Positions 5,324-42,017 of a stretch of 42,017 nt of DNA are shown here, piece after piece. A program made the translations under genes and the position numbers. Numbering within the stretch: the first letter of the stretch is position 1; the number at the start of each line of letters is the position of its first letter. A model generated the notes under the pieces. The model was not told the origin of the DNA and searched no databases. It worked only from the letters and a program-made list of their open reading frames with translations. Location: assembly GCA_905233565.1 (NCBI GenBank), contig CAJOCL010000002.1:1-42017 (forward strand), in the 5' to 3' direction. The stretch is from an uncultured Synergistales bacterium (lineage in GTDB: Bacteria > Synergistota > Synergistia > Synergistales > Aminobacteriaceae).

Positions 5324-6937
5324 ATGAAAGCATTAACTTTTCTTTTGCTTATAACTTTAACATTTATATTATCTCAAAGTCCTTCATCTGCTCAGGAAAT
5401 AATGAGAGCTGAGATCGTAAAAGTTGACTTTTACCCTTCAGGCGCAAAGTTCACCTTTTCCGTTGAACCTTCAGGGCAGGACGGCAGCTTCAACGCCGAA
5501 ATTCCGGGCGCGTTCAGTGCTGAGACGGTTAAGGCTGCGAACCCTGAGAATGTTTACGGCGATATTCAGGCAAGACAGTTTACGCGGACAAGGTGGATTC
5601 CTGAAGAGCTTGAAGCTCTCAATTCACAGCTCGAAAAACAGAGGACTCTCGTAAATTCACTTTTGGCGAGGAAAAATGCTCTCGAACAGACATTGACGCT
5701 CCTCAAAAATTCAAATCCCGACAAGTCAAAGCCTGAAGTCATAATCACGTTTATTACTGACGCTCAGGCATTGAGGCTTAAAACAGAAAATGATCTCGTT
5801 TCGCTTAATTCTGATCTGACAAGAGAACAGGAAAAACTCAGAGTTTTAACGGCTGAATTAGATTCAAAAAGACCTGCAAATGACAGGAGCTACATTCTCG
5901 TTACAGGTCAGGCAAAAGGAACAGTATACATTGAGGCTTTCACGGATTCCGCATCATGGGGACCGAAATACACGCTCAATCTTGACTCTCATACAGGCAA
6001 CATCGGCGTGAAAATGTATGTCCGTGCATTTCAGAAAACAGGGCTTAATTACACCGGAAAAATGACACTTCACACAAAAACACCTGACGAAAGAATAACA
6101 ACCCCTGAACTTTACCCCCTGAAAGTCGGCATAAAACCAAGAGAGGAAGTTATCGCTGCAAATTCAATGGTCAGTCTTTCACGCAATAATAATCAGTTCA
6201 AATCAGCAAGAAGAATGGCAATGCGTGAAGAATCAGAAACACTTGAAGATGTAACTAATTATGATGAGGCCGTTGCCGCACCTTCCATGATTCAGAGAGT
6301 TTCAGTTAATGAGACTTTAGCAGACAGGACACTTAATATTGAAGGGACGCTATCAGGCGACGGAACTGAAAGAGATTTTGAAGTAATCATGAATGATTTG
6401 ACGTTAAAGGGAAAAATAATAATCACCCTTATACCTGAACACAGAAATAACGCATGGATAGTCGCAAGCATGGATGAAAACAATGAGCATTTGATACCCG
6501 GTCAGGCTGAATTGAGGGTAGATAATCACACGTCAGGAAAAATATATCTCGATGAGTACGGCAAAAACGGAACAGGACAGAAAGAAATACCCTTCGGCTA
6601 TGCTGATCAGATTACGGTGAAAAAGACATCCCTTGTCGGAAAAACGGGTGTTTCATGGTTCAGCGGAGTATTTACAAGCGGCTATAAACTTGAAATAACA
6701 AACGGAACTAAAGACGATCATTTAATAACGCTCAAAGACAGGCTGCCGATACCTACGGACGAAAAAATAAAACTTGATGTCAAACGCATTGAGCCGCGCG
6801 AAAAAGAACGTGACAGAGAAAACCGGCTGACTTGGGAAATAAACGTCCCTGCTGGTGCAACAGTCCCGGTTATAGTCGATTATACTTTGAGCTACCCTTC
6901 AGGCGAGGAGCTGCAATACACAAATGGGACAGAATAA
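5324..6937 (+). CDS. Secreted DUF4139-family protein (MuiA-like)
   Basis: The protein resembles the DUF4140/DUF4139 (mucoidy-inhibitor MuiA-like) family, whose biochemical function is unknown. A signal peptide (KALTFLLLITLTFILSQ, cleaved near SSA-QE) is followed by a short beta domain, a coiled-coil hairpin at about 75-170, a beta-rich domain typical of DUF4139 (ASWGPKYTLNLDSHTGNIGV near 205-225), a variable Ser/Glu-rich loop, and a C-terminal beta domain ending with the PAGATVPVIVDYTLSYPSGE-like segment. I chose ATG 5324 rather than ATG 5300 because AAAGGAG at 5303-5309 would lie inside the longer version and precedes 5324; the spacing of 14 bases is long. The gene overlaps the next one by 14 bases. 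A role in the envelope fits with the lipid A genes downstream, but this is inference. Confidence 0.8.
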   Translation: MKALTFLLLITLTFILSQSPSSAQEIMRAEIVKVDFYPSGAKFTFSVEPSGQDGSFNAEIPGAFSAETVKAANPENVYGDIQARQFTRTRWIPEELEALNSQLEKQRTLVNSLLARKNALEQTLTLLKNSNPDKSKPEVIITFITDAQALRLKTENDLVSLNSDLTREQEKLRVLTAELDSKRPANDRSYILVTGQAKGTVYIEAFTDSASWGPKYTLNLDSHTGNIGVKMYVRAFQKTGLNYTGKMTLHTKTPDERITTPELYPLKVGIKPREEVIAANSMVSLSRNNNQFKSARRMAMREESETLEDVTNYDEAVAAPSMIQRVSVNETLADRTLNIEGTLSGDGTERDFEVIMNDLTLKGKIIITLIPEHRNNAWIVASMDENNEHLIPGQAELRVDNHTSGKIYLDEYGKNGTGQKEIPFGYADQITVKKTSLVGKTGVSWFSGVFTSGYKLEITNGTKDDHLITLKDRLPIPTDEKIKLDVKRIEPREKERDRENRLTWEINVPAGATVPVIVDYTLSYPSGEELQYTNGTE

Positions 6938-8081
6938 TTTTTTCAAATGGATTACTGTTCCGCCGGTCGTTGCAATCCCGACAATAATGCTCGCAAGAGC
7001 TATGGGGACAGGCAGCGTTATCGGCGAAGTCGACCTGTCTGTATGGGGTCTCGTTTGGTTCATGTTCATAATAATGAGCATTCTTTACGGACTCTTCATA
7101 GTTCACGGCTTCAATGAAGGCTTAATATCACTTCAGGCACTGGCTCAGGGCGTTTTACTGTGTCCGATGTCGATAACTTACGGCGCGAGAATGTTCCAAT
7201 GGCTCGGCGTTATTATCGCAGTCTGCGGAGGTGCCGCGCTTCTCGTAGCTTATAATCAGGCTGAAAACGAAAGAAATAAAGTTACTGTCGTTGAAATTCA
7301 GGACGATGTCAAACGCATACCGTCAAATTTCGTAATCACTGACAACACGGGAGTTATTCTAAATCTCACTGATGACATGCTCGCACTGTTAGGCATAGAG
7401 CGCGTTGAATCAGTCGGCAAAAATATAAGTGAATGGTTCAACCCCGTATCAACAACTACGGAGATAAACGGCAAAATCTGGGACATTAAGCGGAAAAGCC
7501 TCGATGACGGCAAGAGATTTTATTTTGAGCTCAACCCCAAAGGCCTTCCGTCAGGCGATGAAAACACCGGTGAACAGCAGGGCGAAAATTCAGGGGCTGT
7601 TGAATTTCTTGACCCTGATACACAGCTTCATACTTTCCGTTACGGAATGGCTAGAATCTCTGACGAACTTTACAGGGCAGGACGATATAACCGTCCTGTC
7701 AGTGCCTTGATGATACGCGTAGTATTCCCGCAGCTTCTGCCCGATGACGGAATGGACAAATATATACGTCCTTTCCGTGCATACTGCGCGAGGGTGAAGA
7801 AAGATTTAAGGCAGACTGACACGGTTATACAGGCCGGAGAATTTCAGTTTATCGCCGTTCTTTCAGAATGTCCGTATCAAATGGTCGAGAATATAATAAC
7901 CCGTTTGACTTCGATCGTTAATGCTTTATGCCCGACTTTTGAAGAGTTCCTGCATGTTACGATTCTTAGTGTCCATGAAACTTATGAAGGCGGAACAAAC
8001 ATACCGACAGCTCAGGAAGTTGTCGACAATTTAACACAGCAGATGACACGCAAGTATTCTGCGAATGCATTATCACAATGA
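6924..8081 (+). CDS. Membrane protein with PAS-like and degenerate GGDEF-like domains
   Basis: The 385-residue protein starts with about three membrane helices (roughly 10-27, 40-62, 92-110). A PAS-like segment follows at about 120-175 (FVITDNTGVILNLTDDMLAL), then a region shaped like a GGDEF domain from about 208: DPDTQLHTFRYGMARISDEL, RAGRYNRPVSALMIRV, and RQTDTVIQAGEFQFIAVLSE where an active cyclase would have GGDEF. The signature is therefore QAGEF and the protein is unlikely to make c-di-GMP. It may sense a signal or bind a nucleotide. Its start overlaps the DUF4139 gene by 14 bases and its stop overlaps the next ATG (ATGA), so it belongs to the envelope operon. I do not recognise a named family. 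Confidence 0.65.
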   Translation: MGQNNFFKWITVPPVVAIPTIMLARAMGTGSVIGEVDLSVWGLVWFMFIIMSILYGLFIVHGFNEGLISLQALAQGVLLCPMSITYGARMFQWLGVIIAVCGGAALLVAYNQAENERNKVTVVEIQDDVKRIPSNFVITDNTGVILNLTDDMLALLGIERVESVGKNISEWFNPVSTTTEINGKIWDIKRKSLDDGKRFYFELNPKGLPSGDENTGEQQGENSGAVEFLDPDTQLHTFRYGMARISDELYRAGRYNRPVSALMIRVVFPQLLPDDGMDKYIRPFRAYCARVKKDLRQTDTVIQAGEFQFIAVLSECPYQMVENIITRLTSIVNALCPTFEEFLHVTILSVHETYEGGTNIPTAQEVVDNLTQQMTRKYSANALSQ

Positions 8082-9181
8082 GAAGACGTTTACTTAATAA
8101 ATTAATATTGGGCTCATGTATTGGGCCTTTCATGTTCGGGATATTAATATTTGTTTTAATATTCGTTGCGGGAGATTTATTATTCCAGGCAGCAAAGTTA
8201 ATAATTGAGCAGGGCGTTGCTTTGGGAGTTGTTACGCGCCTGTTCTTTTACCGTCTTCCTGAAGTAATAGTTATGACGATTCCCATGTCGTCATTGCTCT
8301 CAACATTGCTGGGAATGTCAACGCTTAACGCAGGAAGTGAGTTAATCGCCCTCAAATCTCTTGGAATACCTTTCACAAGAATATTGAGACCGGTTTTTAC
8401 GGCCTCCGTATTAATTTCAATAATAGGCTTCGGACTTAATGAAACGATCGTCCCGTTCGGTGCAATAGCGGCAGACAGATTAATGAAATACGAGATAATG
8501 AAAAATCAGGCTTCCGTAATTCAAGAAAAAGTCTTCCTGAGAGATGAGCAGAACGGGAAATTAAAACGCGTTCTCTATATTGATGAGCTTGACCCGGAAA
8601 AAGGCACCCTCAGCGGCATAATGATGCACGAGTTTGACGACGACGGGCATTTGTCCCATACGCTGAACGCAAGGAACGGAATGTGGCAGAATACTCAGTG
8701 GTGGGTTGAGGACGGCAGAATGTACGATGTTGACCGTGAAGGAGAAATCAGGCTGCTGGTCAGGTTTGAACGTCAGAGGCTGGCTCTTAAATTATCTCCC
8801 GAACAGCTTCAGCGTTCAACAAGACGGCCTGCGGACATGAGCGCACATGAATTATGGAGTTACATAAATCAGGGTGAGGCAGTCGATTCTCAAGTTTCGC
8901 AGCTCTGGGTAATGTTCCATTTGAAAACGGCGATTCCTTGGGCCTGCGTAATCATGGCCGTACTCGGTGCAGGTTTCGGAGCGTCAAGGAGGGGACGTTC
9001 AGGAGGCGGAGTAGGTTTCGGGATAAGCGTTGTTATAGTTTTCGCGTATTATGTCGTGATGTCGCTCTGCCGTGCATTCGGCGAGGCAGGTACTCTTCCG
9101 CCTTTTATTGCGGGCTGGGGGCCGAATATATTATTCCTTTTCATTGCTCTTTATTTTGCGTGGAGGGTTGACAGGGTTTGA
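8078..9181 (+). CDS. LptF/LptG-family permease (lipopolysaccharide export)
   Basis: YjgP/YjgQ (LptF/LptG) proteins are the membrane subunits of the ABC machine that extracts LPS from the inner membrane and feeds the Lpt bridge. The 367-residue protein has the family plan: N-terminal helices with the conserved LPEVIVMTIPMSSLLSTLLG segment near 63-82, a periplasmic beta domain (about 140-250, e.g. MMHEFDDDGHLSHTLNARNG), and three C-terminal helices beginning with FHLKTAIPWACVIMAVLGAG. The start ATG overlaps the previous stop by four bases and the stop overlaps the lpxI TTG. Only one such permease is present here, so I cannot say whether it is LptF or LptG or whether it works as a homodimer. Confidence 0.88.
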   Translation: MRRRLLNKLILGSCIGPFMFGILIFVLIFVAGDLLFQAAKLIIEQGVALGVVTRLFFYRLPEVIVMTIPMSSLLSTLLGMSTLNAGSELIALKSLGIPFTRILRPVFTASVLISIIGFGLNETIVPFGAIAADRLMKYEIMKNQASVIQEKVFLRDEQNGKLKRVLYIDELDPEKGTLSGIMMHEFDDDGHLSHTLNARNGMWQNTQWWVEDGRMYDVDREGEIRLLVRFERQRLALKLSPEQLQRSTRRPADMSAHELWSYINQGEAVDSQVSQLWVMFHLKTAIPWACVIMAVLGAGFGASRRGRSGGGVGFGISVVIVFAYYVVMSLCRAFGEAGTLPPFIAGWGPNILFLFIALYFAWRVDRV

Positions 9182-16875: not shown

Positions 16876-17562
16876 TTATCTGAAGTAATCGAGTTTACGC
16901 TCAAGACGGCCTAAAAGAAGCGTAACTATACCGTTAAAAATCAGATAATAAAACGCTGTAAAGAATAACGGCCATATTGCCCCTGAAATTCCGTGAGAAC
17001 CCTTCATAAATGCCTGTCCTGCCCATATAACTTCCTGAAGCGCGATAATTCTCGCCAGTGCAGTATCTTTAACAAGCGTTATAATCTCGTTTGAAATCGG
17101 CGGAACTATGCGCTTTATCATCTGCAATAACGTTACATTAAAAAATATTTGGCTTTTTGTCATTCCCAAGACCAAACCGGCTTCTGACTGTCCGATTGGA
17201 ACGCTCAATATTCCCCCCCTGTAAATTTCAGAGAAGTAACAGGCATAGTTGACTATGAAAGCTATTGATGCCGCAAGGAAACGCCCCGATTCGCCCCCGC
17301 CCCATATAGGACTGTGAAGGACAAGGCCGGGAAAATAATAGACGATTAACAGCTGAATCATTAACGGAGTTCCGCGAATTATCCAGATTATGAAACTCGT
17401 TGTTATGCTTATGACCTTAAATTTTGACAGTGAACCGAAAGCGATAATTAATCCCAAAGGAAAAGCCCCCAGCAGTGTAACCGCAAAGAGCTTCAGTGTC
17501 TGAATAAAACCCTCGTTCAATGCGTTTACTACTATCGGGAGCTGTTCAAGAATTGTACTCAT
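16876..17562 (-). CDS. Polar amino-acid ABC transporter permease
   Basis: The 228-residue membrane subunit has about five helices and the HisM/GlnP family features: an N-terminal NEGFIQTLKLFAVTLLGAFPLG segment split across the first helix, IIWIIRGTPLMIQLLIVYY near 58-77, and the EAA coupling loop EAGLVLGMTKSQIFFNVTLL near 126-145, which touches the ATPase. Only one permease gene is present, so the transporter probably uses a homodimer. ATG 17562 lies about 20 bases after the binding-protein gene stop. Confidence 0.92.
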   Translation of the reverse strand: MSTILEQLPIVVNALNEGFIQTLKLFAVTLLGAFPLGLIIAFGSLSKFKVISITTSFIIWIIRGTPLMIQLLIVYYFPGLVLHSPIWGGGESGRFLAASIAFIVNYACYFSEIYRGGILSVPIGQSEAGLVLGMTKSQIFFNVTLLQMIKRIVPPISNEIITLVKDTALARIIALQEVIWAGQAFMKGSHGISGAIWPLFFTAFYYLIFNGIVTLLLGRLERKLDYFR

Positions 17563-17583
17563 TAATTTCTGATTTTCTGAATT

Positions 17584-18351
17584 TTACTGCTTGATTAATG
17601 CTGCCTGTATTCCGTATTTTTCGGCTGTTTTGATTATACTTCCGTCATTGTAGCCGGCTTCAAAGAAAGCATTTAACATGAAAGTGAGGTCAGAGCCTTT
17701 GCGGAAACCAACACCGTATTCCTCGCTGTTAAGGGGCAGAGTGTAGGCTAAATTTTCGTAGCCCGTTCCTTTTCCAACCATAGCGGCGGCCATGAGAGAG
17801 TCAATTATTGCAGCATCTGCCGTTCCTGATGCAACTTCCATGAGTGCCGTAGCCTGATCCTGAACTTCAACGCATTTAAGGCCGTTAGCTTTTGCCTGTT
17901 CATTTCCTGCGCTGCCGTGTTCGACCGCAAAAGTCAGATTCTTTATTGCTTCGAGTGTTTCATACTGTGACGCTTTATCAGCAGGGACAACGACGATCTG
18001 AGCATTGTTGCAGTATGGATTTGAGCAGCTCATTGAAGATTTTACTTCGGGTGTCAGCGTCATTCCGTTCCAAACGCAGTCGATATTCTTTCCGTTGAGT
18101 TCAAGAATCTTGTTGTTCCATTCGATCTCCTGAAACTCGACTTTCACGCCCAGACTTTCAGCGAATGCACGCGCTAAATCAGCATCGAAGCCGATCCATT
18201 CGCCTTTTTCGTTCTTGTAATCCATAGGCTTGAAGTCAGTTATTCCGACAACGAGAACGCCTTTAGCCTTGACGTATTCTGAATCAGTCTCGGCATAAGC
18301 GCACGAACAGAAAGCCATTACAACGGCAAGAATCAGCAAAAACTTTTTCAT
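17584..18351 (-). CDS. Amino-acid ABC transporter substrate-binding protein
   Basis: This is a periplasmic binding protein of the SBP_bac_3 family. With ATG 18351 as start (MKKFLLILAVVMAFCSC), a signal peptide ends at CAYA-ET. Family segments follow: KAKGVLVVGITDFKPMDYKN, WIGFDADLARAFAESLGVKVEF, NGKNIDCVWNGMTLTPEVK, and TADAAIIDSLMAAAMV. The upstream ATG 18363 is rejected because AGGAG directly abuts it; the same AGGAG is 12 bases before 18351. A promoter (18419-18446) and a palindrome (18387-18410) precede it. The substrate cannot be read from sequence; the usual ligand arginine in the GMT motif position is not obvious. Confidence 0.9.
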   Translation of the reverse strand: MKKFLLILAVVMAFCSCAYAETDSEYVKAKGVLVVGITDFKPMDYKNEKGEWIGFDADLARAFAESLGVKVEFQEIEWNNKILELNGKNIDCVWNGMTLTPEVKSSMSCSNPYCNNAQIVVVPADKASQYETLEAIKNLTFAVEHGSAGNEQAKANGLKCVEVQDQATALMEVASGTADAAIIDSLMAAAMVGKGTGYENLAYTLPLNSEEYGVGFRKGSDLTFMLNAFFEAGYNDGSIIKTAEKYGIQAALIKQ

Positions 18352-18386
18352 TTGGGTAAACATCTCCTGTGTATGTAATAAAAATT

Positions 18387-18410
18387 CTTTAACGATTTAG
18401 CGTGTTAAAG
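18387..18410. promoter_or_regulatory. Candidate operator palindrome for the amino-acid transporter operon
   Basis: CTTTAAC (18387-18393) and GTTAAAG (18404-18410) are perfect 7-base inverted repeats separated by 10 bases. They lie just downstream of the predicted start point of the minus-strand promoter at 18419-18446, where a repressor would block transcription. No regulator gene is adjacent. Confidence 0.4.
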
Positions 18411-18418
18411 TGATAAAA

Positions 18419-18446
18419 ATTTTACCAGAAAATTCCTGAAAGTCCA
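18419..18446 (-). promoter_or_regulatory. Promoter for the amino-acid ABC operon
   Basis: On the minus strand, TGGACT (18446-18441) and TAAAAT (18424-18419) are separated by 16 bases, and TGG precedes the -10 box. This matches a sigma-70-type promoter reasonably well and gives a start point near 18412, about 60 bases before the binding-protein start. Confidence 0.5.
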
Positions 18447-18466
18447 TAGCATTAAACACAAAAAAA

Positions 18467-18565
18467 GGGCGGCTCCGTGAACTCCCCAAGCCTACAGGAC
18501 TTGAAAGCCGTATACATCGAGACTCGGAAACGGTACAAGGCTACGCTTGCCTACTTTATTTTTTT
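18467..18565 (+). ncRNA. Candidate structured RNA or leader upstream of the Synergist-CTERM gene
   Basis: Read on the plus strand, GGGCGGC (467-473 of 18467-18473) can pair with GCTTGCCT (18545-18552) using several G-U pairs and enclose two hairpins: CAAGCC-TACA-GG-A-CTTG at 18487-18503 and a GCCGT/ACGGT stem at 18507-18534. A CTTTATTTTTTT tract follows at 18554-18565. G+C content is clearly higher than in the flanking DNA. I do not recognise a known riboswitch, tRNA, SRP RNA or 6S RNA. It may be a small RNA, an attenuator-type leader, or chance. Confidence 0.3.
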
Positions 18566-18578
18566 ACAGGCAATAACA

Positions 18579-18605
18579 TTCGGAGCATAATTTTTCCATT
18601 ATAAT
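18579..18605 (+). promoter_or_regulatory. Weak promoter candidate for the Synergist-CTERM gene
   Basis: A perfect TATAAT at 18600-18605 has only a weak -35 (TTCGGA, 18579-18584) at 15-base spacing. It would place the start point about 30 bases before the gene. If it is the real promoter, the structured element at 18467-18565 is not part of the leader. Confidence 0.25.
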
Positions 18606-18640
18606 AATCCTCAAAATAATTCTAAAAAGGAGAATCATTC

Positions 18641-21600
18641 ATGAAACACAAAATGCGTTTTTCATTCGGAGTGTTCCTGCTGCTTCTTCTCAGTGCAGGA
18701 GCCTCATTCGCTGTAGCAATTCCCGGCCATGACGGTAAAGAGCTCGCATTGTCCCAGATACCCGACATAGTCAGGCATATTACGGGCAAAACCTCAGGGG
18801 ATTTAAGCATGAAGAAGGAATCACTGTTCATTTACAGTGTCGGCGGCAACCAGCACAAGGAACTTTACACGTTCAACAATGACGGCAGCCCTAACCGCCT
18901 CGTGTCATTAACGGGGGAATATGGTAGGTTGCCCTCTGGTCAGCATTACTGGCTGGACCTCTCAGACTATAGCAGAGTTTCAGTAGTCAACACTTCACCC
19001 GCAAGCAGCAGTGATGCAGGAAAAACCCTGCTGAATTTTGCTGTCGCTGGACTACCCTTAAGAACCTTCAGAACGCTGGACAATCAAGGTAATTATGTTG
19101 TGAGCAGTGCTGACGCAGGCGGTGTAAATGTTCAGGAGGGCGGCAAACGTTTTGTATGGCGGGATGTATGGCCGGAAGATCATGAAATCTCAGGCAAATT
19201 AGTCGGTGTCAAAGCAGGTATCAAAGTGAAGGGCTATGACGGCGAGCTTGTCGCGTTTCTCTTCAGGGACGGCGCAACAGTCCGTTTACATTTGGGATGT
19301 GTCAATTACGGCACTGCTGCCGCTGACGCGTACGTAACCCCGGCAGCTCCAGACACATGGTCAAAGACTCTCAACATGGTTCCGACTATGTTTGACGGAA
19401 CAGTATATTTCCCCGTCGACATGGCCGCAGGCGATTTCAACAATGACGGCTATGCCGATGAAATTGTTGTGGTTGAAACGGACACAGTTGCTATCCACTA
19501 CAACGTCCTCCATATTTCACACACGGGAAGCACACCAAAGGACGCTCGTTTCTCGGTCAGCCTGCTTAGAGACGGCGAGGTCGGCAGATATGACTACAAG
19601 ATTATGCATTACAAAGATACTATTGACCAGGAATTGACCGAACAGTACCAGGCCCGCGGCACTAACATTGACGGACTTTCCTGCACGTATTCAGTCTGCA
19701 CTGTGGCCGGAGATTTTGACGCGGACGGAAATACAGAGTTTGCCGTAATTTACAGGGACACATCGCCGCAGGTTCAAACCTTGAAAAGAGGCCCCACTCA
19801 GCATACTTTTTTCGTTGGCTACACAGGGCGCATTCACGTCAAGACATATAAATGGAACGGAGGCAGTTTCCGGAGTGAGGAAGACGTGCAAACTCTTGAT
19901 TCTGAATCCGTTGAGCGCAGAACATTTCTTGAATTACTAGATTGTAGAGAATATAATATGCCGATCGGAGTTAAGGCCACTGTCGGAGATTTTGACGGAG
20001 ACGGCCGTGATGATATTGCTGTCCTGAGAGTCATGCTTCAGACCGAGAGGTATTATAGTCGTTGGCATACTACCTGGCTTTTACCTCCGTATTTAAGTTT
20101 AGCATTCGGCGCATATGTTGACTGGTACACGTTCGACTATAGAAGCATAAAGCCGATATATAACGGTATCGGCACCCCCACCAGATACTGGAATCACAAC
20201 AACAGCAGCGGCTGGGTAGGAGTAAGCACAAAGGATGTGGATCTTCCTAGTACCAGCGAGGCAGGCATAAATCAGGACGGTGATCATTCACAGGAAAACC
20301 AGAACAAAATCAGGAAACTTTACTTTCTTCAGCCTATAACAGGAGAACAGAATCCCTATCCCTTTGTTGACCGCGAATTTGACATCATCGCCGGGAAATT
20401 CACAGGCACGGTAGGAAAAGCAACGACACGCGACGACCTCATCATCAAATATCCCAAGTGGGCTGACGGGGGCGGAAACAAACTGAGGAGTCATATTGCA
20501 CTGATGTCGAACATTCCGGGCATAAAAAGCGGGCAGGCTCAGGTCAAAGAGATTACTGTAGCCAGATTCCGCGATCATCATTTTGCATTTGCGAAGGCTG
20601 ATTATGTCGATGAGAGCATTTCTCTCAACGACCCTGTGAAAGTTACTGACACTTCGGACCGTGATTATACCGCCGAGCTTCAGATGTTCCCGTATCATGT
20701 CGATAACCTGACTTCAGACGGCACAGCACTGCAGAAAGGCCCGAATAATTTCACGCTCCGGCTTGGCACCACGGTAACATACAGCAACACTTCTTCAAGC
20801 ACAGAGACAGAGAACCTCAAATACGGCATGACGAGAGTAGCTGAGACTATATTTGCCATCGACAATCCGGCGATGCGGACGGCCTCAAAAACCTTCCAGG
20901 GCATAAGGGGAATAATGACCTCCGGAATAGGAGACAATGACTTTATCAAGAAGATTGGCACCGTTGGAGGGATATGGGACAAGCTGAAGGACACAGTAGA
21001 GACAACGACATCAAAATCAAACGAGCGTTCCCAGAGCTATACCATGACAATAAGAACTGAGGCTGACTATCAGGATACCCTGTACATGAACCTGTCAACC
21101 CGTTACATATGGCGTTATCCTATTCAGGAAGTCCCTGCTCCGGCGTGGATTATCGGCCAGACAAGAGACGACACTACGGGCAGCTTTGACAAATCGAAGG
21201 TAAGGGATAAGCGCAGCTACATCACTTTTGCCATGAGCGAGCCTTCATCGCCGTCAGGCGTGGCAGGTGTCAATGACTCGTACTACCAGCCGTATCACGA
21301 GCGCGGCAACCTGTTTTCATATCCTCCAACACTTGAGCAGGTAGAAGGCTACACGGGAGGAACGTCCATCGCCAAAGAAGGTAAAAGGACATGGAACGGC
21401 TCAAATTTTGCGGAAGAAATCACACTGACAAGCACAGTAACGAGCCAAGATCAGACAAAGAAGGTCAACAAGCTCGGAGCGATAACAAAATTCCTCTCAG
21501 CGATAGATAACCTTTTCGGCTCAAATATGGCGCATATTCCGCAGAACAGCGAGTCAAGTTTCACAAGGAGCGTAACAGACGGCGAGAGCATAAAAATAAA

Positions 21601-35937: not shown

Positions 35938-36981
35938 ATGATTAAGTTTGAAACTGATTATCAGGAAGGTGCATCGCCGGAAATCTTAGAGCGTTTAGTG
36001 AAGACTAATTTTGAACAGACTTCAGGATACGGCGAAGATTCACACTGTCAGCGAGCAAAGGAACTTATACGGAAAGAAATTAACAGGCCGAATGCAGCAG
36101 TTTACTTCATGGCCGGAGGAACTCAGACAAATACAACGGTTATAAAGCATTTTTTAACGCCTTGCGAGGGTGTTATAGCCGTAAATTCAGGTCATATAAA
36201 CGTACATGAATCGGGCGCAATCGAGGCAACAGGCCATAAAGTTATCGCCCTTAACGCTCATGACGGCCTGCTTGATGCAGAAGATTTAAGGCTTTACCTT
36301 GAGGCTTTTTATGCTGATCCGACACATGAACACATGGTACTTCCCGGCATGGTATATATTTCTTACTCTTCAGAACTTGGGACGCTGTACAAAAAATCAA
36401 TGCTTCAGGAAATAAAATCAGTATGCAGTGATTACGGGCTGAAGCTCTTTATTGACGGTGCGAGGCTCGGAGCGGGCTTAATGTCGGACAGCTCCGACAT
36501 GACAATGCAGGACATTGCAGGCTTATGCGACGCGTTTTACATCGGCGGAACGAAAACGGGCGCACTTTTCGGCGAGGCCGTAATCTTCCCTGAGCCTGAA
36601 AAAGCTAATCTCAAACAGTTTACTACGCTGATAAAACAGCAGGGCGGATTGCTTGCAAAAGGGCGGCTCTTGGGGATTCAGTTTGAAGTTTTGTTTGAAG
36701 ACGGATTGTATTTCAGGAATGCAAAACACGCAGATATTCAGGCCATGAAGATTAAGAAGGCTTTTTCTGAAGCAGGAATAAAATTTTTGATTGACTCGCC
36801 GACAAATCAGCAGTTCCCGATTTTGACGCGTGAACAGCATGAAAAGTTATCATCAAAATTCAGCTATGAAACTTGGCAGCCGTTAAATGACGGGAATATT
36901 GCCGTAAGATTCTGCACAAGCTGGGCAACAACTGATTATAATATAGACGAATTAACAAGGGCAATTAAGGAGTTAAAATGA
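35938..36981 (+). CDS. Low-specificity threonine aldolase-type PLP enzyme
   Basis: This fold-type I PLP enzyme of the beta-eliminating lyase family most likely splits threonine (or allo-threonine) to glycine and acetaldehyde. In 347 residues it shows AAVYFMAGGTQTNTTVIKHF near 54-73, the AVNSGHINVHESGAIEATGHKV segment near 83-104 in two parts, the cofactor aspartate in LFIDGARLGAGL near 167, and the PLP lysine in YIGGTKTGALFGEA near 201. AAGGAG lies about 15 bases before ATG 35938, a long spacing. It overlaps valS by three bases. The sequence cannot separate L- from D- or serine-type specificity. Confidence 0.87.
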   Translation: MIKFETDYQEGASPEILERLVKTNFEQTSGYGEDSHCQRAKELIRKEINRPNAAVYFMAGGTQTNTTVIKHFLTPCEGVIAVNSGHINVHESGAIEATGHKVIALNAHDGLLDAEDLRLYLEAFYADPTHEHMVLPGMVYISYSSELGTLYKKSMLQEIKSVCSDYGLKLFIDGARLGAGLMSDSSDMTMQDIAGLCDAFYIGGTKTGALFGEAVIFPEPEKANLKQFTTLIKQQGGLLAKGRLLGIQFEVLFEDGLYFRNAKHADIQAMKIKKAFSEAGIKFLIDSPTNQQFPILTREQHEKLSSKFSYETWQPLNDGNIAVRFCTSWATTDYNIDELTRAIKELK

Positions 36982-39653
36982 CTACAAGAAAACGGAACAG
37001 AAATTTAGACAAGAGTTATTCACCGGACAATATAGAACAGAAATGGTATTCAGAATGGCTTGAACACGGCCTCTTCAACGCTGAAATAAGCGCGGATAAA
37101 GAGGCGTTTTCGATCGTAATTCCGCCTCCTAACGTTACGGGTTCCCTGCATGTCGGCCATGCGTTCGATCATACGTTTCAGGATATTATGTGCCGTACAA
37201 AGCGTATGGAGGGTTACAGCGTCTTATGGCTTCCCGGGACTGACCACGCAGGAATCGCAACTCAAAACGTTGTTGAAAAGGACTTGGCAAAAAAAGGAAT
37301 ATCACGTTACGATCTCGGGCGCGATGAGTTTGTAAAAAAAGTCTGGGAATGGAAAAAAGTTTACGGCTCCCGGATAATCGAACAGATGAAGAGGCTCGGA
37401 AATTCCTGCGACTGGAGGCGAGAAAGATTCACGCTTGACGAGGGGTTATCACGTGCCGTCAGAGCCGTATTCGTAAGGCTTTACAAGAAGGGCTTAATAT
37501 ACAGGGGAAAATACATTGTAAACTGGTGTCCGCGCTGTGAAACGGCAATTTCAGACCTTGAAGTCGAATACGAGGACAAACAGGGTAAATTCTATTATGT
37601 GAAATACCCGTTAATTGAGACTGACTGCGAGGAAAAATACATACTTGTTGCGACGACGCGCCCGGAAACGATAATCGGCGATGTTGCTATAGCCGTTCAC
37701 CCGCGTTCAGAAAAATACAGGCACTTAATCGGTAAACATGTAAAAGTGCCGTTAACTGAACGAATAATCCCCATAATCGAAGATAACATGGTTGACCCTG
37801 AATTTGGTACGGGCTGCGTAAAGATTACGCCGGCTCATGATCCGAATGATTTTCTTGTCGGCTTAAATCACAATCTCGAACAGATACAGATTATTGACGC
37901 AAAGGGAATAATGAACGATAAGGCCGGAAAATATCAGGGAATGACAATCGAACAGGCACGCAAAGAGTCAGCGAAAGACTTGGAAGAACTGGGCCTGCTT
38001 GTCAAAACTGAAGACATAACCCACTCGGTCGGACACTGCCAGCGCTGCGGGACAACAGTAGAGCCGTATTTATCTGAACAGTGGTTCGTAAAGACAAAGC
38101 CTCTTGCAGAACGCGGAGTGCAGGCAGTTAAGGACGGGCGTATAAAATGGGTTCCCGAACAGTGGGAAAAAACGTATTTCAACTGGATGGAAAATATACG
38201 GGATTGGTGCATTTCCCGTCAATTATGGTGGGGACACAGAATCCCGGCTTGGGAATGTAAGGACTGCGGACACATAACGGTTGCAGAGATTGACCCGACG
38301 GAATGCGAACACTGCCACAGCAAAAATATTGAACAGGAAAGCGATGTCCTTGATACGTGGTTCAGCTCTGCTCTTTGGCCGTTTTCAACAATGGGCTGGC
38401 CTGACGACAAGCCGGAACTGAAGTATTTTTATCCGACTTCATTAATGGTAACGGGCTTTGACATAATATTCTTCTGGGTTGCGAGAATGATTATGATGGG
38501 TCTTGAGTTTATGGACGATGTACCGTTCAGGGATGTTTATATACATTCTCTTATACGTGACGAACACGGCAAGAAGATGAGCAAGACTAAAGGCAACGTT
38601 ATAGACCCGTTAGTAATGATTGACAAGTACGGAGCTGATGCGCTCAGAATGACGCTCGCCGCTTTATCAGTTCAGGGACGGGATATACTGCTGTCGTCAA
38701 CAAGAATCGAGACTTACAGATTTTTCATGAACAAACTTTGGAACGCCTCACGCTTTGCGCTCATGAATCTTGATGACGAAGTAAGAGATATTGACCTTTC
38801 ACAATTACAGCTTCATGATAAATTCATTTTGACGCGTACTCAGGAAATGGCAAAGAGTGTCAGAGAATTGATAGATTCTTACGACATCGGAACGGCTGCA
38901 AGGGGTCTTTACGATTTTGTCTGGGGGGATCTCTGCGACTGGTACGTTGAGATGAGCAAGCCTGCATTGAAGGGCGATGAGGGTGAAGACAGAAAGAAAA
39001 CAACTCAGGCTGTCCTTGAACATGTATTCAAGACAGTTTTGCCGCTGTTGCACCCGTTTACGCCGTTTATTACTGAAGAGTTGTGGGCTGCGTTCGGTTT
39101 CAACGATGATTACATTATGAAAACTTCATGGCCTGAACCTGTAAGAGATTATATTTTTGAGGGCGTTAATGACGACATGAAGGTATTGCAGGAGACTGTG
39201 AGGGTTCTTCGTAATCTCAGGGCGGAAGCACACGTTCCGCCTCAGCAGAAGTTAAGCCGTGCCGTAATCCGTGTCAGTTCGGGAACAAAGGCCGCTGAAA
39301 TTCTGAAAGCGTCATTAAATCAAGTCTCAAACCTCTGCAAAATCAATGATGTAATTCTTGAAGAACCTTCGGGCGGATGGACATACGGGCCTTCACTTTC
39401 AGGAGTTGCGGGTGAAGCTGAGGTTAAATTACCGGTAGGAGATGTCCTCGATGTTCCGAAGGAAATTGCGAGGCTTGGACAGGAAATTTCAACGCTTGAA
39501 AAGAATATCGCCTCAAGTCAGGCCAGATTGAATAATAAGGATTTTGTTTCACGGGCTCCGGCTGAAGTTGTCGAGAAGGAACGCTTAAAAGTCTCAGAAG
39601 GTCAGGCACAAATTGAAAGATTGAGGGCAAATCTTGAAAGTTTGAGCAGGTAA
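36978..39653 (+). CDS. valS: Valyl-tRNA synthetase
   Basis: ValS charges tRNA-Val and edits mischarged threonine. The 891-residue class I enzyme has the HIGH motif as HVGHAF in IPPPNVTGSLHVGHAFDHTF (about 48-67), the TDHAGIATQ loop, the editing-domain ATTRPETIIGDVAIAVHP segment, a zinc-like pair of cysteine motifs (WECKDCGH and TECEHCHSKN), the KMSKS motif as KKMSKTKGNVIDP near 532, and a C-terminal coiled-coil arm (about 825-890). All functional parts are intact and length is normal. Its ATG shares bases with the aldolase stop (ATGA). A stem-loop starts six bases after its stop. Confidence 0.97.
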   Translation: MTTRKRNRNLDKSYSPDNIEQKWYSEWLEHGLFNAEISADKEAFSIVIPPPNVTGSLHVGHAFDHTFQDIMCRTKRMEGYSVLWLPGTDHAGIATQNVVEKDLAKKGISRYDLGRDEFVKKVWEWKKVYGSRIIEQMKRLGNSCDWRRERFTLDEGLSRAVRAVFVRLYKKGLIYRGKYIVNWCPRCETAISDLEVEYEDKQGKFYYVKYPLIETDCEEKYILVATTRPETIIGDVAIAVHPRSEKYRHLIGKHVKVPLTERIIPIIEDNMVDPEFGTGCVKITPAHDPNDFLVGLNHNLEQIQIIDAKGIMNDKAGKYQGMTIEQARKESAKDLEELGLLVKTEDITHSVGHCQRCGTTVEPYLSEQWFVKTKPLAERGVQAVKDGRIKWVPEQWEKTYFNWMENIRDWCISRQLWWGHRIPAWECKDCGHITVAEIDPTECEHCHSKNIEQESDVLDTWFSSALWPFSTMGWPDDKPELKYFYPTSLMVTGFDIIFFWVARMIMMGLEFMDDVPFRDVYIHSLIRDEHGKKMSKTKGNVIDPLVMIDKYGADALRMTLAALSVQGRDILLSSTRIETYRFFMNKLWNASRFALMNLDDEVRDIDLSQLQLHDKFILTRTQEMAKSVRELIDSYDIGTAARGLYDFVWGDLCDWYVEMSKPALKGDEGEDRKKTTQAVLEHVFKTVLPLLHPFTPFITEELWAAFGFNDDYIMKTSWPEPVRDYIFEGVNDDMKVLQETVRVLRNLRAEAHVPPQQKLSRAVIRVSSGTKAAEILKASLNQVSNLCKINDVILEEPSGGWTYGPSLSGVAGEAEVKLPVGDVLDVPKEIARLGQEISTLEKNIASSQARLNNKDFVSRAPAEVVEKERLKVSEGQAQIERLRANLESLSR

Positions 39654-39693: not shown

Positions 39694-40561
39694 ATGTTCA
39701 ACGATATATTGAAGATAATAGATAGTTCAAAAGGCAGAAATTTTTATGATGTCTGCGGACTATTAGAGGCGTTAATAAGCTCTGATAAAAATTTTAATGA
39801 TATTCTCCGCCAAATTAGGAACAATCCCTGAAAGCATATCGCATGACTCAGCTGAAGAAAAATTATTTTCTAAGGCTTCAGATATGGTTTTGTCCCGTGC
39901 ATTCAGAGAATTAGGGCTGAAATCAGCAGTTTTGCATGAACGCGGAGATTCGGCAGACGTTACCGCTGAATCAAGAATACACGGCTATACGTTTGTTGCT
40001 GATTCAAAGGCTTTCAGACTGAGCAGGACGGCAAAAAATCAGAAAGATTTTAAGATTTCAGCATTGTCAAGCTGGAGAAAAGATAATGATTATGCCGTTT
40101 TATGCTCTCCGTATTTTCAGTATCCGGCGAAATCGAGCCAGATATACGCGCAGGCACTTTCAAGTAATGTATGTCTTTTCAGCTGGGAACATTTAATCTT
40201 CATGCTTGATAATCACGTGAGAGAAACAGCAGAGTTAAATTTTTCAGAAATATGGAATTTCAGCAGTAATTTTTCACATAAAGTTCTGGTCTCTGATATG
40301 AAGAGAAATTTTATGCTTGATTTCAGCAGTTTTTTGGCTGAATTTCTAAATATTGACGCTGAAATATTTAATGCTTCGCTGAAAGAGCAAATATCATGCC
40401 TCATCAATCGAAGCCGTATTGAAAAAGATTTCTGGATTGATAAAATTAAAATCATAAAGAATTATTCACGCGAACAGGCAGTGAACGAGCTTATAAACTC
40501 GCTGAAAATCAACGAGAAACTAAACCAGATTAATACATATATCAGGAGCATATCACAATGA
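39694..40561 (+). pseudogene. HindIII-like type II restriction endonuclease, frameshifted near its N-terminus
   Basis: The catalytic ORF (39797-40561, 254 aa) is recognisably homologous to HindIII (cuts at AAGCTT): EEKLFSKASDMVLSRAF, the PD-(D/E)xK site with Asp54 and D69-S-K71 in FVADSKAFRLSRTAKNQKDF, NDYAVLCSPYFQYP, LFSWEHL, and RSRIEKDFWIDKIKIIKNYS. The HindIII N-terminal helices are found in another frame as a 45-residue ORF at 39694-39831 (FNDILKIIDSSKG ... NFNDILRQIRNNP). Removing one A from the AAA run at 39812-39814 joins the two as ILRQ-LGTIPES and gives 288 residues, close to the 300 of HindIII. So either a 1-base insertion has broken the gene, or there is a sequencing error. The isolated catalytic ORF might still be translated. 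The methyltransferase overlaps by four bases. Base composition is more AT-rich than around it. Confidence 0.85.
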
Positions 40562-41470
40562 AACTTGATGTATTAATTCACGGCAATTCGATAGAAATAT
40601 TGAAAACATTTCCAGAAAGTTCAGTACATGCAATAATCTCTGATATACCGTACGGAATCGGCTGCGATGAATGGGACATACTGCACGACAACAAAAATTC
40701 TGCATACGGCGGAGCTTCTCCTGCACAGATTTCCGGCGGTGGCCTGTTCAAACGCAGAGGGAAACCGTTAAACGGCTGGAGTGATGCAGACAAAAACATA
40801 CCGCGTGAGTATCAGGACTGGTGCATGTCATGGGCCTCTACATGGCTTAGAGTTTTGAAACCCGGCGGAACGTGCTTTATTTTTGCCGGAAGGCGTTACG
40901 CGCACAGGTGCATTACGGCTCTTGAAGATTCCGGCTTTACGTTCAGGGATATGCTTGCATGGGAAAAAGATAACGCCCCTTACCGTGCGCAGAGGCTTTC
41001 GTCAATATATGAACGCAGGAGTGATACAGAAAACGCTGAAAAGTGGCAGGGCTGGAGGGTTGCGAACTTGAGGCCGCTTTTTGAGCCTATATTATGGTTT
41101 CAGAAGCCGTACAGAACTGGAGGAACTATTGCGGACAACGTAATAAATTATGAGCTGGGTGCATGGAATGAGCAGGCCATAACAAAGTATAATATTCGTG
41201 ATGATAACAGCAATATCCTGAAGGTTAAGACCTCACAGAACGATCATGGCCTTCATGTTGCCCAGAAGCCTTTGAAACTCATGGAGCTGTTAATTTCTTT
41301 GGTTACAACTGAAGGACAGATTATTAGACCCTTTTATGGGTTCCGGCACTGTATGTACAGCCGCAAAAAATCTCAACAGACATTACATCGGAATAGACAT
41401 AGAGGCTTTGAATATAGCGACAGCCGAAGAAAGATTAAATACGGCTTTTCAATGTGAACTTGCACTGTAA
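40558..41470 (+). pseudogene. M.HindIII-like adenine-N6 DNA methyltransferase, frameshifted before motif I
   Basis: The product resembles M.HindIII, a beta-class N6-adenine methyltransferase that protects AAGCTT. Motif IV is ISDIPYG (Asp29-Tyr32 form of DPPY), followed by GCDEWDILH, RRGKPLNGWSDADK, RAQRLSSIYERR, and RPLFEPILWFQKPYRTGGTI. In the uninterrupted frame (to 41457, 299 aa) the protein ends in nonsense after EGQI. The next frame, from about 41327 to a TAA at 41468-41470, encodes the AdoMet-binding motif DPFMGSGT, then NRHYIGIDIEALNIATAEERL. Removing one base near 41320-41326 restores QILDPFMGSG and a 303-residue protein, close to M.HindIII. As it stands, the AdoMet motif is lost and the enzyme should be inactive. 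Confidence 0.87.
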
Positions 41471-41558: not shown

Positions 41559-42017
41559 TTAGATCATCATACATATAACTGGAATAGTAATCATACATAA
41601 TACATTCTGTAAAAACATAATCTTTGCTGCAAAATCAATATTCCCGTGATACATTTCACACATTCCGACGGTAACGCTTGCGCCGGGCATGGCGTTAATC
41701 AAGACAAGGACGGCTGAAACAAGAGGATTTGAACTTATGCTGAAAATTTTCAGGATTAAGCACAGTGCCACAGGGTATATGACAAGGCGCATTGCTGTAG
41801 CGATCCAGGCGTGAAAATTTTTGAGAATGTCAGATGCTTTTGAATGAGCTAATGCCATTCCGATCATGAACATTGAAAGAGGCGTTGTCATGTTGGATAT
41901 ATAAGAAATAGGGACGGCAGCTGTTGACGGCAGACTTATCCGGCCGAAATAAAATATTAAGCTCAAGACCGTAGCTATGTTTATGTTACTGAAGATTATA
42001 GATTTCATGTTCAGGCC
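41559..42017 (-). CDS. AEC-family (auxin efflux carrier-type) transporter, C-terminal part
   Basis: The reading frame is open to the right edge; the visible 152 codons are the C-terminal half of an AEC/malate-permease-type membrane transporter (full length about 300-320). Five helices are visible. Family features are the PISYISNMTTPLSMFMIGMALA segment just after the domain junction (kept here in two parts), LVIYPVALCLILKIF, and NAMPGASVTVGMCEMYHGN followed by the last helix. ATG 42008 is internal, since upstream codons continue in frame. Members of this family export organic acids or other small anions; the substrate cannot be read. Confidence 0.85.
   Translation of the reverse strand, partial: GLNMKSIIFSNINIATVLSLIFYFGRISLPSTAAVPISYISNMTTPLSMFMIGMALAHSKASDILKNFHAWIATAMRLVIYPVALCLILKIFSISSNPLVSAVLVLINAMPGASVTVGMCEMYHGNIDFAAKIMFLQNVLCMITIPVICMMI

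Follow-up and report, generated by a model that had tools for sequence, protein, structure and literature searches.

The nearest described counterpart of the locus analysed here is the HindIII system of Haemophilus influenzae (R.HindIII, PDB 2e52/3a4k, and M.HindIII), in which the restriction endonuclease gene (R) is followed by the methyltransferase gene (M). According to one published account, restriction-modification (R-M) systems in decay would give more methyltransferases than restriction endonucleases, and a surplus of endonucleases is harder to explain because the remaining endonuclease would cut the host (PMC6471742). For Metamycoplasma hominis, truncated methylases and methylase pseudogenes have been described, together with the absence of the endonuclease gene from some strains; the degraded loci belong to dam and dcm type families, which, like the organism, differ from those considered here (PMC10305163).

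The locus under study has the HindIII order of R then M, and its products are, over the aligned parts, 47% (R) and 61% (M) identical to those of the H. influenzae HindIII locus (L068), in agreement with an earlier note on this DNA, made from the sequence alone, that had proposed a HindIII-type pair with frameshifts in both genes. These two frameshifts set it apart from the H. influenzae system, and its specificity for AAGCTT is predicted from homology. The loss of R before M is something that it would share with R-M systems in decay and with solitary (orphan) methyltransferases; it differs from them in that M is lesioned as well, unlike in the 10 congeners that possess M.

The window, i.e. the whole stretch of DNA that was analysed (bases 1-42017; 42,017 nucleotides), is part of contig C2 of the assembly G000, which comprises 2.02 Mb in 34 contigs and is 96.5% complete. 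Gene order in the window is valS, then R, then M, and the closest named relatives of the window R are found in rumen and gut Synergistaceae and Fretibacterium-like MAGs. The features of the locus are as follows:

36978..39653, + strand: valS, intact, upstream neighbour of R
39694..40561, + strand: R, HindIII-type restriction endonuclease gene, frameshifted after about 41 codons (PF09518, 4.7e-58)
39797..40561, + strand: downstream open frame of R, 254 aa
39812..39820, + strand: lesion of R, one base extra in comparison with congeners (M..IPE spacing)
40558..41457, + strand: first frame of M, N6-adenine methylase, with the DIPY motif and the target-recognition part (PF01555 profile 1-185)
41320..41327, + strand: lesion of M, two bases short in comparison with relatives, directly before motif I
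41324..41470, + strand: second frame of M, with motif I (DPFMGSGT) and the C-terminus, TAA at 41468 (PF01555 profile 186-219)
41559..42017, - strand: AEC-type membrane transporter gene, downstream neighbour (PF03547, 1.8e-13), cut by the window end

A scan for promoters and terminators was uninformative; the numbers of promoter-like and terminator-like sites were 9 and 2, and those in shuffled sequence 5.3 (sd 2.9) and 1.9.

The window R does not run in one uninterrupted frame from the N-terminus, the frames changing near 39817. The second frame alone accounts for the PF09518 match at 4.7e-58, spanning positions 45-283 of the 285-position profile; the HindIII PDB chains match the window R at 3e-73, and the first 41 codons, which lie in the other frame, correspond to the N-termini of the congeners. 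The distance from the start to IPE is 43 residues in 7/7 congeners, and the window reaches 43 only if one base is skipped. By this measure, the window R carries one extra base. As read, R would yield a 45-residue peptide.

The first frame of M, starting at ATG 40558, ends in ...TTEGQIIRPFYGFRH... with its stop at 41455-41457 and consists of 256 normal residues, with normal reading up to 41325, plus 43 out-of-frame residues. The +1 frame reads LDPFMGSGTVCTAAKNLNRHYIGIDIEALN... and runs to the TAA at 41468-41470. A frameshift just before motif I, with DPFMGSGT in the +1 frame, was what the earlier note had reported, and this was confirmed; at the position of the lesion, 9/9 congeners inspected have a single M frame, mostly reading EGQI[IV]LDPFMGSGTT. 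Identity of the first frame to congener M is 74-82%. The window M has the order of motifs of the beta-type PF01555 methylases: motif IV (DIPY) comes first and motif I (DPFxGSGT) lies towards the C-terminus, here in two frames. Motif I was found in the +1 frame only and not in the open frame that holds the rest of the window M. The Pfam N6_N4_Mtase profile (PF01555) is split between the two frames without a gap, with positions 1-185 in the first (to residue 256) and 186-219 in the second. Because the profile is used continuously by two frames and the relatives are single-framed, the frameshift in M is, on these comparisons, not a product of chance.

The spacing between KP and DPF is 21 codons in 54/55 relatives with a usable motif (80 loci examined). 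In the window M it measures 61 nt versus 63 in relatives, i.e. two short, and in the alignment with the H. influenzae HindIII M there are zero residues between window residue 256 and LDPF, so that the junction is contiguous. By homology, M is two bases short and not one base long. The removal of a single base, by which M was previously thought to be mended, restores the frame and leaves the spacing uncorrected. Nor do the genes contain two single-base insertions, as had been claimed, given that R has one base extra and M lacks two; the accompanying suggestion of errors of the same kind is unsupported, the two lesions differing in kind. As read, the M product would lack everything from motif I onwards, with a nonsense tail in its place, and presumably could not methylate; with both genes affected in this way, the system would be dead. 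The idea that the C-terminal part is translated from a start of its own, making M a split methylase, was considered and rejected, since the first in-frame start, ATG 41336, sits inside motif I.

The assembly contains 38 AAGCTT sites, and a second close M homologue was not found in it; for these reasons, an active R would be expected to kill the cell if M were missing. Since the combination of an active R and a dead M should not be viable, R must have been lost before M unless M still works, and the reasoning of the earlier note that R must not outlive M is judged to be right. Contig C11 of the assembly carries an intact DpnII-type endonuclease gene with an overlapping N6_N4_Mtase gene (6900-8509; L133), the site of which is presumably GATC, unlike that of the HindIII-type pair.

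In a 300 kb sample of the assembly, AAGCTT was the most depleted of the 64 six-base palindromes (2 versus 91.7 expected). Other palindromes avoided in the same sample include GAATTC (3/122.8, observed/expected), GGCGCC (1/40) and TTTAAA (3/111.2). Across 43 genomes of the genus, with or without a HindIII-type pair, the number of AAGCTT sites ranges from 12 to 1838 per genome, the R-less genomes G063 and G012 having 441 and 1234, respectively. AAGCTT depletion does not discriminate and was rejected as a demonstration that a HindIII system had long been active here, because low counts are shared by many six-base palindromes and equally few sites occur in many congeners that lack the system.

M was found in 11/43 genomes of the genus, and R in 9/61 genomes searched, the own genome included in both counts. 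The R of the eight congeners is intact in six and broken in two, namely in G019 (stops and a frameshift) and G026 (a frameshift), M being open in both. In G012 and G063, M is open and R was undetected within 1.5 kb upstream. A short stretch resembling the N-terminus of R was noticed by eye directly before the open M of G063 (L110), as though a deletion had removed the bulk of R. A broken M is absent from all 10 congeners with M. In three of the 10 congener R-M or M loci (G002, G030 and G028), valS is located upstream of R as in the window, and in the other seven it was not within the examined flank. The shared position next to valS implies that the pair is old at this site and that the lesions are recent.

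Among 80 wider loci, both genes are intact in 68, and R is broken beside an intact M in five (four with internal stops, one with a frameshift). Clear cases of a broken M with an intact R numbered zero among these 80 loci. For these counts, L068 was taken as intact, its flagged stop being the natural end of M; L044 was left out, a second R piece lying at the other end of the contig; and L020, L023, L047, L058 and L079 are edge or missing rows, L047 having a short M match with 127 bases of the locus remaining. In L049, R is broken and no M is present in the available locus DNA. In L021, L025, L046 and L092, one internal stop each occurs in an otherwise well-conserved HindIII-type R, with an intact M beside it. 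The asymmetry among the relatives favours a loss of R first and of M after it.

Real decay of both genes in this lineage, R first, is probably what the window records; this weight and those given to the rival explanations below are judgements and not computed posteriors. A vertically inherited HindIII-type (AAGCTT) pair beside valS would have begun to decay recently. In a first step, a one-base insertion near codon 42 would have inactivated R; with R gone, M would have become dispensable for survival and could then have lost two bases just before the AdoMet-binding motif I. The sequences themselves show both frameshifts, their sizes by homology, the intact relatives and the R-first asymmetry among them; from these we infer the presence of the lesions in the cell, the order in which they arose and the loss of activity. 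The only broken M seen adjoins a broken R, and R-first decay predicts exactly such a pairing. Counted against decay are the missing signs of relaxed selection, a frameshifted single-copy pyrH in the same assembly and the lack of a broken M in the 10 congeners.

For R, pN/pS of the window against congeners was 0.19-0.34 (congener pairs, 0.15-0.32); for M, of which the first part was compared, it was 0.16-0.22 (congener pairs, 0.12-0.26). In these comparisons, neither relaxed selection nor lesions beyond the one per gene were seen in R or M. With pN/pS values as in intact congener pairs, either the lesions arose very recently or they are not real. The latter would be the case if both frameshifts were consensus or assembly errors and the cell had a working HindIII-type system, which we regard as unlikely. 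In its favour, R and M are otherwise pristine, and frameshifts are seen elsewhere in the assembly. The only copy of pyrH (UMP kinase; contig C7, approximately 17536-18244; L129, L175, L176) is frameshifted in a G run. Since pyrH is normally essential, the frameshift in this single copy probably reflects an error in the consensus and served as a yardstick for the assembly. An NADH:flavin oxidoreductase gene is split over two frames as well (contig C3, approximately 17697-18717; L125).

Against errors in both R and M stands the rarity of lesions elsewhere. Scanning approximately 700 kb, or 35% of the genome, revealed pyrH and the flavin oxidoreductase gene as the two frameshifted genes outside R-M (approximately 698 kb), a rate that is a lower bound, as the composition scan misses short pieces, left R unflagged and found pyrH borderline; in 400 kb, it returned no candidate. 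Among 222 comparisons with orthologues, the window genome showed frameshifts in 3 distinct genes (R, M and pyrH, i.e. two of the three being the pair itself); the corresponding figures were 3/118 for G019 and 3/94 for G030. When four lesions were placed uniformly in 700 kb by simulation, the closest pair was at most 1.5 kb apart in 2.6% of the simulations (0.026), which lends moderate support only to the previous claim that the paired lesions are unlikely to be chance. Moreover, the loss of two bases outside a long homopolymer is unlike the error in pyrH. ATTAG was rejected as a systematic error word; it occurs 226 times in 300 kb on both strands (121 ATTAG and 105 CTAAT), and the lesions of pyrH and the oxidoreductase gene lack it. 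Because two lesions within 1.5 kb are improbable at the low lesion density elsewhere, decay is favoured over error. Of the alternatives given in the earlier note, the comparative data favour a loss of R first, and they are compatible with consensus error as well.

If R were truly broken and the lesion of M alone a consensus error, the cell would possess a solitary AAGCTT methylase like G012, G019, G026 and G063. The open M in 10/10 congeners having the gene, the intact M in the five wider loci with a broken R and the finding that M is not under relaxed selection would suit this explanation, which is nevertheless quite improbable, as errors are infrequent and one would have had to fall precisely in the gene that adjoins a real lesion.

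Programmed frameshifting (recoding) would yield both proteins from the genes as they stand. Both sites share ATTAG, read as ATT AGR in the first frame, and need a shift in the same direction; ATT AGA and ATT AGG are nearly absent from open reading frames (2 and 0 versus 22.6 and 24.7 expected). This rarity is explained by the avoidance of all NNT-AGR codon pairs, which was about eightfold (62 versus 477 expected; 300 kb of the assembly, ORFs of at least 300 codons) and far stronger than that of NNT-ANN pairs overall in the same sample (3611 versus 5328 expected). None of the nine congeners inspected has a shift at the site, one common shift cannot give the spacing of the relatives in both genes, and a slippery heptamer was not seen by eye. 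A search of the available literature found no paper linking programmed ribosomal frameshifting with R-M methyltransferase genes. On spacing and lack of conservation in the congeners, recoding was rejected, and we give it hardly any credence. Its most specific form, in which the expression of both R and M would depend on a +1 shift at the ATT-AGR site that they share, the genome avoiding T-AGR pairs, so that restriction and modification would be coupled to the translational state, deserves slightly less still. Phase variation by slipped-strand mispairing is the least credible of all, even with two frame lesions within one R-M pair and R-M genes being often phase-variable, because neither site has a homopolymer longer than four bases, a longer repeat was not seen by eye and no congener inspected has a tract.

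We conclude that the most likely history of the window pair is one in which a gut-type bacterium has recently been losing a defence system by ordinary decay, the cutter first. If the frameshifts were errors, they would warn against reading a single frameshift in assemblies of this sort as biology without reads, even where it hits an essential gene such as pyrH. If they are real, the window would capture an R-M system partway through its death, the losses following the sequence predicted by addiction theory, and its sister species would display the intact, the R-less and the R-broken states.
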